This document shows positions 985-7,353 of a stretch of DNA of 19,391 nt, in pieces; positions within the stretch are counted from its first letter, which is position 1, and every line of letters starts with the position of its first letter. The notes under the pieces were generated by a model. The model searched no databases. It had not been told where the DNA came from and saw nothing but the letters and a program-made list of their open reading frames with translations. The translations under genes were made by a program, and so were the position numbers. Source of the stretch: Syntrophobacterales bacterium (GTDB lineage: Bacteria; Desulfobacterota; Desulfobaccia; Desulfobaccales; 0-14-0-80-60-11); assembly GCA_020052215.1 (NCBI GenBank), contig JAGVPN010000507.1, forward strand, positions 1 through 19,391, given 5' to 3'.

Positions 985-1833
985 TCAATCCAACCGGCCC
1001 TGTTCCTTCAGGGCCAGGTAGGCTTGGTAGACCTGGCGCCGGGAAATCTTCAGATCCCCGGCCACCTGGTCCGCCAGGCGCCGCCCCTTTAAACCGCTCT
1101 CTTGGGCGGCTTTAACCAGGCAGCCCTCCAAATCCGCCGGCGGGAGCATCAATGCGGCCGCCGGGCAGGAGAGCACCAGGGCGCATTCACCCCTGATCTC
1201 AATATGTTGCAGCTTCAGGGCGATATCCGCCACCGGCCCCCGCCAGGTTTCCTCGAACTTCTTGGTGAGTTCCCGGACCACCAGGACCTCCCGGTGGGGC
1301 ATACTCCCGGCGATTTCCGCCAGCGTCCGGGCCAGCCGCCGGGGTGACTCATACATGATAATCACCCGGGGCTCCAGCGCCAGGGCCTGGAGCATTTTCA
1401 GCCGCCGGCCTTCGCCCCGGGGCAGGAAACCCACGAAAAGTATATCGCCTTTGAACCCGGAAAGCGAGAGCGCCGCCACTCCCGCGGCCGGGCCGGGTAT
1501 CGCCTCCACCCTCACCCCCGCTTCCCAGGCCCGGGCCACCAGGTCGGCCCCGGGGTCCGAAAACCCCGGAGTACCGGCGTCGCTCACCAGGGCCACGTTT
1601 TCCCCCGCCTGAAGCCGCCGGATCAACTCCGGCCCCCGGGAGGCCTGGTTGTGAGCATGGTAGCTGATGAGCGGCGTCTTAATCCCGAAGTGGCTCAGGA
1701 GCTGCCGGGTGTGGCGGGTATCTTCCGCGGCGATGAGGTCCGCCTCTTTCAACACCCTAAGGGCCCGGAGGGTGATGTCCTCCAGGTTGCCGATGGGCGT
1801 GGCGACGATGAAGAGCGTGCCGATGGCGCTCAC
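985..1833 (-). CDS. rsmI: 16S rRNA (cytidine1402-2'-O)-methyltransferase RsmI
   Basis: RsmI methylates the 2'-OH of C1402 in the decoding centre of 16S rRNA using SAM. The protein has the tetrapyrrole-methylase-like fold. The N-terminal block GTLFIVATPIGNLEDITLRA and AAEDTRHTRQLL are RsmI signatures. They are followed by the SAM-binding SDAGTPGFSDPG and the EAIPGPAA segment, and by YESPRRLARTL. A helical C-terminal tail (LKISRRQVYQAYLALKEQ) matches the HTH-like extension of the family. I chose GTG at 1833, giving 282 residues, because homologues begin only a few residues before GTLFIVATPIG. It starts one base after the upstream yraN stop. An ATG at 1872 would add 13 residues and overlap yraN. 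The gene is the last clear member of the run that includes rnhB and yraN. Confidence 0.93.
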   Translation of the reverse strand: MSAIGTLFIVATPIGNLEDITLRALRVLKEADLIAAEDTRHTRQLLSHFGIKTPLISYHAHNQASRGPELIRRLQAGENVALVSDAGTPGFSDPGADLVARAWEAGVRVEAIPGPAAGVAALSLSGFKGDILFVGFLPRGEGRRLKMLQALALEPRVIIMYESPRRLARTLAEIAGSMPHREVLVVRELTKKFEETWRGPVADIALKLQHIEIRGECALVLSCPAAALMLPPADLEGCLVKAAQESGLKGRRLADQVAGDLKISRRQVYQAYLALKEQGRLD

Positions 1834-1834
1834 C

Positions 1835-2791
1835 TTAAAATGCGTTGGGAATAATCTCCACCTGGGGAACATTGTCCTCCAGGGTGACAGCCACCACGTC
1901 GAAGCGTACCGGCGTCCCGGTGAGGCGTTTGGCCTTGAGGTAATAATCCGCCAGCCGCCGCAACCGGCCCTGCTTGCCGGGATTCACCGCCTCTTGAGGG
2001 GTCCCGAAGCTTGACCCCCGCCGGGTCTTGACCTCCACCACCACCAGAACCTTGCCCTGCCGAGCGATGAGGTCGATCTCCCCTAAGGGCGTCACATAAT
2101 TGCGCTCCAGGATTTTATAGCCCTGTTGCTTCAAAGCCGCAGCGGCCAGGTCTTCGCCTTGATCCCCCAGTTGCCGCCGTGGGTCCGAGGGCGGACACGC
2201 AGGTCCGCCCCTACGGGTTTCCTTGATTGGCCTGGTTCTGCATGTGGTCAGCCAGCGGTCAAATTCATCGCTACCTCTCGATCGTGGGTTTTCTCGATCC
2301 AAATCCCATCGCAGAGGATTACTCGCAATATATTCCCTGATGCGGTTTAAAGATGCCTCATCCCGGATCACATGGTCATAAAAACTGCGTTGCCACAGAC
2401 TTCCCTTAAACTGAGGCCATCCATGCTCCTTAACCCCATGGATATATTCATTGGTGGTCATGGTTTTAAACCATTGCACGATCCTCTGTAGGGGCGGACC
2501 TGTGTGTCCGCCCTCAGTCGTGGGCGCCGACAGCTCCGGAATAAAAACAATCCCATGAAAATGGTTTGGCATGACCACATAATATTCATCGATTTTGATT
2601 GGGGGAAACTTGCGTTCTAATTCCTTCCACCATCTCTCCACCATAGACCCGGCCTGATTAAGCTGCATCTCTCCGTGAAGAATTTCCCCCCATAAATCTT
2701 GCCGACCCTGAACACATACCGTGACGAAACAGGCCCCTTCCTGGGAATAATCGTAACCGGATAGACGAGGGGATTTGCGATGCCACATCAT
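1835..2791 (-). CDS. yraN: RAYT transposase fused in frame to YraN (UPF0102) family protein
   Basis: One unbroken frame encodes two proteins. Residues here are counted from an upstream ATG at 2809. Residues ~8-190 are a Y1/REP-associated tyrosine transposase: the YDYSQEGACFVTVCVQGR strand, the metal-binding HUH motif PNHFHGIV (His83, His85) and the catalytic Tyr144 in WQRSFYDHVIRDE. All key residues are intact. Residues ~211-324 are a complete YraN domain (predicted endonuclease-like fold) with GEIDLIA, VVVEVKTRRG and RFDVVAV. The linker at ~198-207 (TRRGGPACPP) is encoded by a palindromic repeat, and a second copy encodes GGHTGPPL inside the transposase. I chose the ATG at 2791, which overlaps the rnhB stop and follows GGGGAA. 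No ATG, GTG or TTG start is visible just before the YraN part, so YraN may exist only as the fusion, or through internal initiation or cleavage. Elsewhere rnhB-yraN are commonly adjacent, so I infer the RAYT was inserted between them. Confidence 0.88.
   Translation of the reverse strand: MMWHRKSPRLSGYDYSQEGACFVTVCVQGRQDLWGEILHGEMQLNQAGSMVERWWKELERKFPPIKIDEYYVVMPNHFHGIVFIPELSAPTTEGGHTGPPLQRIVQWFKTMTTNEYIHGVKEHGWPQFKGSLWQRSFYDHVIRDEASLNRIREYIASNPLRWDLDRENPRSRGSDEFDRWLTTCRTRPIKETRRGGPACPPSDPRRQLGDQGEDLAAAALKQQGYKILERNYVTPLGEIDLIARQGKVLVVVEVKTRRGSSFGTPQEAVNPGKQGRLRRLADYYLKAKRLTGTPVRFDVVAVTLEDNVPQVEIIPNAF
2189..2214. repeat. REP-like palindrome encoding the RAYT-YraN linker
   Basis: Inverted repeat GGGCGGAC-acgcag-GTCCGCCC followed by CTAC. 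Read on the minus strand it is GTAGGGGCGGAC..., the same family as copies at 2488, 5905, 7298 and 7327. It is inside an open frame and is translated as RRGGPACPP, which joins the transposase to the YraN domain. Confidence 0.85.
2488..2513. repeat. REP-like palindrome inside the RAYT coding region
   Basis: GTAG followed by GGGCGGAC-ctgtgt-GTCCGCCC. It lies between the HUH motif and the following helix of the transposase and is translated on the minus strand as EGGHTGPPL. It is the same family as the linker palindrome at 2189 but in the opposite orientation, so the C-terminal half of the transposase coding sequence is bracketed by an inverted pair. Confidence 0.85.
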
Positions 2792-3426
2792 TCCCCGCCC
2801 CCCAGCCACTCCTTGACGCCCCGGAAAGTCCGGCGGTGGAGGACGCAGGGGCCCCAGCCGCGCAGGGCCTCCAGGTGTTCAGCGGTGGCGTAGCCCTTGT
2901 GCCGGGCGAAGTTGTATTGGGGGTAGCGTTGGTGCAGCGCCTCCATCAGCCGGTCCCGATAGACCTTGGCCACCACGGAGGCCGCGGCGATGGAGGGACA
3001 GCGGTCGTCCCCCTTGATCACCGGTTGCTGGGGGTAAGGCAGGGGCAGGGGCAGGTGGCCGTCCACCAGGACCATTTCCGGGACCGGGGCCAGGTCTTTT
3101 ACCGCCCGGGCCATGGCCTTAAGCGAGGCGGCCAGGATGCCCTGGCGCTCGATCTGGCGGGGTCCTATGGCATGGATGGCCAGGGCCAGGGCCTGGCGCC
3201 GGATTTGGCCATCCAGTTCCAGCCTGATTTCCGGAGAGAGGCGCTTGGAATCCCTGAGCCCGGGAAAAGCGACACCGGCGGGGAGGATGACAGCCGCGGC
3301 CACCACCGGCCCCGCCAGGGGGCCCCGACCCACTTCATCCACGCCGGCAATGAGGGTCAATCCCTGAAAACGCCAAAATCCTTCCGGGTCAGCAAGTACG
3401 TCATCGCTGCCCGGAAGACGGCTCAT
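2788..3426 (-). CDS. rnhB: Ribonuclease HII
   Basis: RNase HII cleaves RNA in RNA-DNA hybrids and removes single ribonucleotides from DNA. The 212-residue product has all family blocks: [19 protein letters not shown] with acidic Asp30 and Glu31, [15 protein letters not shown] with Asp122, and the [19 protein letters not shown] block with Asp158. The C-terminal [19 protein letters not shown] segment is also typical. The four carboxylates of the two-metal active site are therefore present. The ATG at 3426 overlaps the rplS stop in ATGA, and the stop at 2788-2790 lies within the ATGATG start of the downstream RAYT-YraN gene. This argues for tight translational coupling. The rplS-rnhB-yraN order is a common bacterial arrangement. 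Confidence 0.97.
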
Positions 3427-7297: not shown

Positions 7298-7353
7298 GTA
7301 GGGGCGCACTTATGTGCGCGCCCAAGGGGGCGGACACGCAGGTCCGCCCCTAC
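7298..7353. repeat. Tandem pair of REP-like palindromes just upstream of ffh
   Basis: The first unit (7298-7323) is GTAG GGGCGCAC-ttat-GTGCGCGCCC. The second unit (7327-7353) is GGGGCGGAC-acgcag-GTCCGCCCC-TAC. The outer ends are GTAGGGG and CCCCTAC, so the pair is head-to-head, like a BIME. It lies immediately before the ffh start codon, where a ribosome binding site would normally be. Confidence 0.82.

Follow-up and report, generated by a model that had tools for sequence, protein, structure and literature searches.

The fused gene and its locus

The locus described here raises the question of how a REP-associated tyrosine transposase (RAYT) came to be read in one frame with YraN, and whether the two halves form a single working protein or are neighbours that share an open frame. 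The window, that is, the whole stretch of 19,391 nucleotides that was analysed (contig JAGVPN010000507.1 of assembly GCA_020052215.1), carries the fused gene between rnhB and rsmI (Table 1). According to the initial annotation, a complete RAYT with its HUH motif and catalytic Tyr runs in frame into a complete YraN, exactly between rnhB and the usual start of yraN, so that a gene of the operon has taken up a transposase as its N-terminal half. This description is borne out: the frame is free of stops and frameshifts, both sets of motifs are intact, the position is as described and the fused form is kept in many sequences. The fusion is the sole copy of YraN detected in the window's genome (G000), and yraN yields a single match per genome in 56 of 59 genomes, G000 included.

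Table 1. Features of the fused gene, its neighbours and the associated REP palindromes (positions in the window).
Feature	Position	Strand	Remarks
rsmI, downstream of the fusion	985..1872	-	TIGR00096, 232 bits
Fused RAYT-YraN gene, 318 aa	1835..2791	-	stop codon 1835-1837; 119 other listed sequences with the same architecture or pieces of it
YraN (UPF0102, PD-(D/E)XK) half, residues 206-318	1838..2176	-	
Linker, residues 187-205	2177..2233	-	pLDDT <50 at 187-205
REP palindrome GTAGGGGCGGAC-N6-GTCCGCCC forming the linker	2189..2214	-	read as RRGGPACPP; hairpin -11.7 kcal/mol, z -2.7
RAYT (HUH/Y1 transposase) half, residues 1-186	2234..2791	-	
Y154-I-A-S-N158, catalytic Tyr and metal-binding Asn, class-2 context Y---NP	2318..2332	-	both residues in 120/120
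REP palindrome forming the loop between HUH and Tyr	2488..2513	+	product GGHTGPPL (coding strand); hairpin -10.7 kcal/mol, z -4.2
HUH motif NHFH, residues 76-79	2555..2566	-	NHxHG in 117/117 sequences covering the motif
rnhB, upstream of the fusion	2788..3426	-	RNase_HII, 123.8 bits; stop overlaps the fusion start
Third member of this REP family, immediately upstream of the ffh ORF	7328..7353	-	

The same protein is found elsewhere. All of the 120 sequences listed among 2146 protein matches, the window's own included, represent the fusion architecture or pieces of it, and 110 of them measure at least 290 residues, with identities down to 58% and contigs of up to 2.6 Mb; these listed matches are biased to full length, and split forms are under-sampled. 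Their source names include 'putative transposase', 'REP-associated tyrosine transposase', 'putative endonuclease', 'uncharacterized protein (TIGR00252 family)' and 'YraN family protein [Desulfobaccales bacterium]'. With 514 contigs and 72.8% completeness, the window's genome is a fragmented one, and an artefact of assembly or annotation might be suspected, but the identical join in four genomes and in at least 110 long sequences leaves that reading with virtually no credibility, and an assembly artefact or a chance open frame was discarded on these grounds.

Identity of the two halves

The N-terminal half appears to be a RAYT resembling TnpA-REP subclass 2.4 (group 4), an assignment made from motifs, fold and REPs and separate from the profiles of the authors who defined the subclass. 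That subclass is described as having the HUH motif NH[IFV]H, together with the class 2 tyrosine context Y---NP (PMC6006769), and the window protein has both, NHFH being its HUH motif, as well as the conserved WQ; the Y---Q context of IS200/IS605 is absent, with Y---NP in its place. The variable residue of NHxHG is F in 105 of the 117 sequences covering it (L in 7, I in 2, V in 2 and C in 1), and among the 120 sequences Y154 and N158 are invariant, P159 is retained in 116, W133 in 118 and Q134 in 119. Two further traits of the subclass concern the repeats themselves. An in-frame REP between HUH and Tyr, a described feature of subclass 2.4 (PMC6006769), is present at 2488-2513, with a REP-like loop in three other genomes carrying the fusion (G003, G018 and G014), and the flanking of the gene by GT[AG]G-tagged genomic REPs is represented by the linker REP and, in G018 and G014, by upstream REPs. 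A patchy distribution is likewise shared with subclass 2.4 (PMC6006769). The curated RAYT models score the window protein below their cut-offs (NF047646, 57.8 bits against 80; PF01797, 21.3 against 23), and a precomputed PF01797 match accompanies 15 of the 120 listed sequences; because of these low scores, the half is labelled here as RAYT-like by motifs, fold and REPs.

Tyr138 was also considered as the catalytic residue and dropped, since class 2 enzymes use the Tyr of Y---NP, which is Y154; position 138 is Tyr in 112 of the 120 sequences, Phe in five, His in two and Cys in one. The five sequences with Phe (P0114, P0115, P0116, P0118 and P0119) form a single fused clade with Y154 intact, and in four of them the linker is no longer a clean REP.

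The C-terminal half is a full YraN domain (103.9 bits against a cut-off of 23.6; NF009154, 133.2 against 109). The ID-EVK type of PD-(D/E)XK active site known from YraN (PMC1189080) is represented by E238, D240, E253 and K255, all four present in 120 of 120 sequences. In its active site, operon position and 3fov fold this half resembles YraN/UPF0102 proteins, from which it differs in having no start of its own and an HUH transposase at its N-terminus. YraN has been described, with reference to a preprint, as a helicase-associated nuclease that may assist natural transformation together with ComM (PMC12455585); no activity was detected for a recombinant UPF0102 protein (PMC10140301), which makes the nuclease role a tentative one. 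Of the 29 genomes of the order, 27 have a match to the ComM model above the cut-off, including G000, G014 and G018; the fused G003 has none.

An initial structure model was weak (pLDDT 65.8), and a second, built with 146 sequences, was used instead. It predicts two folded domains, with low-confidence stretches at residues 1-17, 88-98 and 187-205, and the modelled domains match 4er8 (RAYT core) and 3fov (YraN). The E. coli TnpA-REP in 4er8, a chain of 165 residues, shares the core fold, HUH and Y---NP; it belongs to subclass 2.2 (group 2) and is not known to have a fused partner.

Both halves appear to evolve under constraint. In the two close genome pairs, G000-G003 and G018-G014, dN/dS (NG86) is 0.13 and 0.07 for the RAYT core, 0.23 and 0.18 for YraN and 0.67 and 0.34 for linker plus loop; in the four cross-genus pairs, dS exceeds 1.1 or is undefined for RAYT and YraN, with 0.47-0.82 for linker plus loop. 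The values for the close pairs indicate that purifying selection is acting on both halves.

A repeat that is read as protein

The initial annotation recognized the fusion correctly and overlooked that its linker and loop are translated REPs, that these belong to a family dispersed in the genome and that the fusion is patchily distributed within genera. The linker REP holds GTAGGGGCGGACCTGCGTGTCCGCCC on the coding strand; the loop REP, an element of the same kind in the opposite orientation, coincides in part with residues 88-98, where confidence in the model is low. The two are of different type, and the loop of G014 contains several REPs, all in frame. The arms of both palindromes can be followed in the protein: among the 120 sequences, those of the loop read GGHxGPPL in 74, GAHxGAPL in 33 and otherwise in 13 (three unpaired, namely V/A, V/P and G/S, and ten off-pattern, some truncated), whereas those of the linker read GGPxxPP in 103, an A/A form in six and otherwise in 11. 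The arms thus seem mostly to co-vary, related sequences not being independent events. At the nucleotide level, every pairwise comparison among the four fused genomes, six in total, shows the same six codons in the stem of the linker; elsewhere, 43-61% of codons for identical residues match between the two genera, and six-codon runs that are all identical account for 9 of 132. A palindromic repeat doubles as a protein linker, its arms mostly changing together.

What sets the present gene apart from known members of subclass 2.4 is the translation of its 3' REP, through which the RAYT is connected with an entire YraN. The passages of PMC6006769 consulted make no mention of a translated 3' REP fusing a RAYT to another protein, and the term YraN is absent from the paper; its authors do state that they set aside a few proteins of unexpected length, which they regarded as fusions of genes or errors of annotation. 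Within the open literature, a domain that leaves preprints and most subscription papers outside, no paper names both a REP-associated tyrosine transposase and YraN, and of two papers in which transposases, YraN and fusions are all mentioned (PMC1189080 and PMC9276795), neither has a title that deals with a fusion of this sort.

In the unfused genome G010, the gap between rnhB and yraN (locus L009) holds an inverted pair of another repeat, GTAGGGGCGGGG, so this gap acquires REP-like elements in an unfused genome too. In two other unfused genomes, G017 and G021 (loci L017 and L018), the gap is filled by an extra ORF of another kind, of roughly 220 aa.

Distribution of the fusion and of the REP family

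Among 29 genomes of the order, the fusion occurs in four, G000 and G003 of genus g1 and G014 and G018 of genus g7, always between rnhB and rsmI. A separate RAYT beside a yraN with its own start, the arrangement that would have spoken against the initial annotation, was not detected at any of the 23 genomes with a free yraN; in the remaining two (G002 and G012) yraN was not found. Fusion is evidently dispensable, since G001, a member of the window's own genus, lacks a RAYT at the locus, its YraN sharing 94.8% identity with that of the window. In a scan of contigs of named genomes, the best 80 of 563 relatives had a fused ORF at none of the 80 loci, and in a scan of 395 genomes of the phylum (E 1e-30), a sample to which G018 does not belong, both halves were spanned, among the matches listed, only in G000, G003 and G014.

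REP abundance and the fused state go together. Exact matches to the pattern GTAGGGGSSSACN6GTSSSCCC number 41 in G000, 165 in G003, 129 in G018 and 84 in G014, against 0-39 in the 23 unfused genomes (39 in G020, 32 in G001, 25 in G010, 21 in G009 and 0-2 in the others), and the reversed control pattern is absent from all 29. All four fused genomes rank above all 23 unfused ones (exact rank probability 5.7e-5; Mann-Whitney 4.0e-4), in a comparison that omits G002 and G012, where yraN was not found, and in which two genes' worth of REPs lie inside the fusion itself; permutation within the two mixed genera gives 0.016, relatedness being otherwise uncorrected. This is a correlation over four fused genomes of two genera: the 41 copies of G000, an incomplete genome, are close to those of the unfused G020 and G001, and G002 has 83. 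Further RAYTs occur in some genomes of the order, and G017 combines two free-standing RAYTs with one REP copy, which argues against those RAYTs as the explanation of the REP family.

Of the 41 G000 places, 35 are listed, and these include nine REPIN-like inverted pairs with members about 30 bases apart; the members of each pair differ in stem type (CGG, CGC, GGG, GGC, CCG). Many inverted REP pairs with a cognate RAYT are also a feature of REPIN-RAYT systems, from which the present case differs in that the RAYT that would be the cognate one makes up half of a core gene. Fused and unfused relatives within one genus, with differing REP numbers, are available in nature.

History of the join

The two halves give different trees. 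In a quick tree of 75 free-standing RAYTs and 90 fused RAYT halves, the fused ones form one side of a single branch (SH-aLRT 94). A second tree, of 47 fused halves, the 50 nearest proteins of another search and 6 free-standing RAYTs, places the free-standing P0122-P0126 inside a set (support 96/92) with 46 fused halves; at its unresolved base lie the fused P0109 and the free-standing RAYTs of G003 and G017, and the fused/free label changes six times, five of them forced. Two of these free-standing RAYTs, P0125 and P0126, terminate within the linker REP and P0123 just short of it; P0122 lies on a contig of only 1,033 bases; five RAYTs so near to fused ones and without YraN suggest that the halves can separate again.

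In the YraN tree, by contrast with the RAYT halves, the fused YraN of G000, G014 and G018 adjoin unfused YraN of their own genera, and the fused label changes ten times, at least five of them forced by starred branches. A single vertical origin of the whole fused protein was rejected, a tree with one fused-YraN clade being 145.5 log units worse (AU p 2.8e-51), with 113 columns only and a group tested after the tree had been inspected. Distances in the two halves are nevertheless correlated across 110 sequences (Mantel r 0.68, none of 999 permutations as high). Since the RAYT halves form approximately one clade and the YraN halves do not, fused and unfused alleles were probably exchanged or sorted among lineages. 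On a recent spread of the module by recombination the flanks give a mixed picture: in genus g1, most subsegments of rnhB and yraN adjoining the RAYT show the fused G000 to be more similar to the fused G003 than to the unfused G001 (0.983 versus 0.825, 0.907 versus 0.805 and 0.941 versus 0.873) and one is contrary (0.925 versus 0.950), the two pairs being nearly equal over the whole segments, and in genus g7 the flanks of the fused G014 are nearer to the unfused G020 than to the fused G018. Synonymous divergence of the two halves in g7 is alike (0.94 and 0.80).

The start of yraN bears on the possibility of repeated loss. The unfused start motif was located in 15 of the 23 genomes (not in the other eight), and upstream of these 15 no clear RAYT remnant was found (best tblastn E 0.011). 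The start MKDPRR[QL]LGD is common to G001, G010, G009, G017, G019 and G021, of three genera, and the window protein retains DPRRQLGD immediately after the REP. Such a common start would be hard to recreate by separate losses and counts against repeated loss of the fusion. We infer that the join was formed once, with the REP replacing the first codons of yraN.

One chain or two

Taken together, these data make it probable that a REP-mediated fusion has been kept as one bifunctional protein, with a RAYT half that still handles REPs. A subclass-2.4-like RAYT with its flanking REP hairpin would have landed ahead of yraN, and the stop-free REP would have replaced the first codons (MK of MKDPRRQLGD) and become the in-frame linker. 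Translated as a single chain, the protein would cut and rejoin single-stranded REP hairpins through its RAYT half, spreading REPs, while the YraN half would carry on its normal nuclease work; the RAYT would thus ride on a core gene. Given that both the join and the crucial residues on either side of it are retained in more than 100 related sequences, the association has the look of a durable partnership that did not persist by accident.

The main competing explanation is that the RAYT is a tolerated passenger, inserted in an open frame before yraN and kept for its own sake, the link having no function of its own; YraN would then arise by internal initiation, often at an ATG or GTG in the linker REP, or work despite the fusion. 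The initial annotation had noted that no usual start codon precedes the YraN part, which holds for the window's gene and is not general. The codon at the linker REP site is GCG in G000 and AGG in G014, and ATG in G003 and G018, where it is in frame and AGGGG stands seven bases before it. Met, Val or Leu occurs in the linker of 98 of the 120 sequences, and Met or Val, often within the REP, in 93, which favours the passenger explanation, as do the patchiness of the fused state within genera and the five RAYTs close to fused ones that have no YraN. On the other hand, 22 of the 120 sequences, the window's included, have no Met, Val or Leu at residues 189-207, and thus no usual start codon there, and the REP-loop residue is Met in 44, Val in 31, Ala in 17, Thr in 7 and another in the rest, a variability not expected of a start that is needed. 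Internal initiation is therefore possible in some or many sequences without being a conserved feature of the linker, and starts farther upstream in the RAYT half are possible. The open linker frame in at least 110 long sequences is a weak argument against a passenger, the search favouring full-length matches, and this bias shifts some weight slightly from the bifunctional reading to the passenger. On balance, we regard a mere passenger as unlikely, if a serious contender.

Conversion of the RAYT half to a non-transposing role, such as binding of REP hairpins or control of its own operon by way of the REPs that the transcript contains, would agree with the conservation of the RAYT core, with its low dN/dS in both close pairs and with hairpins lying within the coding region. 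Such a conversion is, however, difficult to reconcile with a catalytic Tyr and a metal-binding Asn that never vary, and with many REP copies, often in inverted pairs, whose types differ by genome and between loop and linker in a manner suggestive of turnover; we therefore consider it very improbable.

Returning to the bifunctional protein, RAYTs act on single-stranded REP (PMC8266576), and action on the same single-stranded DNA could plausibly account for the pairing, our favoured guess being that the RAYT is brought to single-stranded DNA where YraN works. More speculatively, and with doubtful prospects as a whole, the fusion might be a single working machine: YraN, with ComM on recombination intermediates, would carry the RAYT to single-stranded DNA, REPs would spread via recombination or transformation, the fused 5' module would pass between the yraN alleles of different species at the rnhB-yraN locus, and the RAYT would persist on a core gene. 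RAYTs are said to behave like housekeeping genes (PMC8266576), and both this behaviour and their use to the host call for an explanation; the present RAYT, which has a nuclease of core DNA processing as its partner and in which the catalytic sites of both halves are kept, supplies a specific pathway in which to look for one.

In-frame joining of RAYTs is not confined to yraN. In G273, from another family of the phylum, a 689-aa ORF (L182, 1341-3410, plus strand) combines an HsdM-like methyltransferase with a RAYT (N6_Mtase, 237.8 bits; Y1_Tnp, 26.8 bits); this second fusion shows that such joins arise, which is a point in favour of a passenger. In G025, a 429-aa open frame (L045) contains two tandem RAYT N-terminal halves followed by one C-terminal half.
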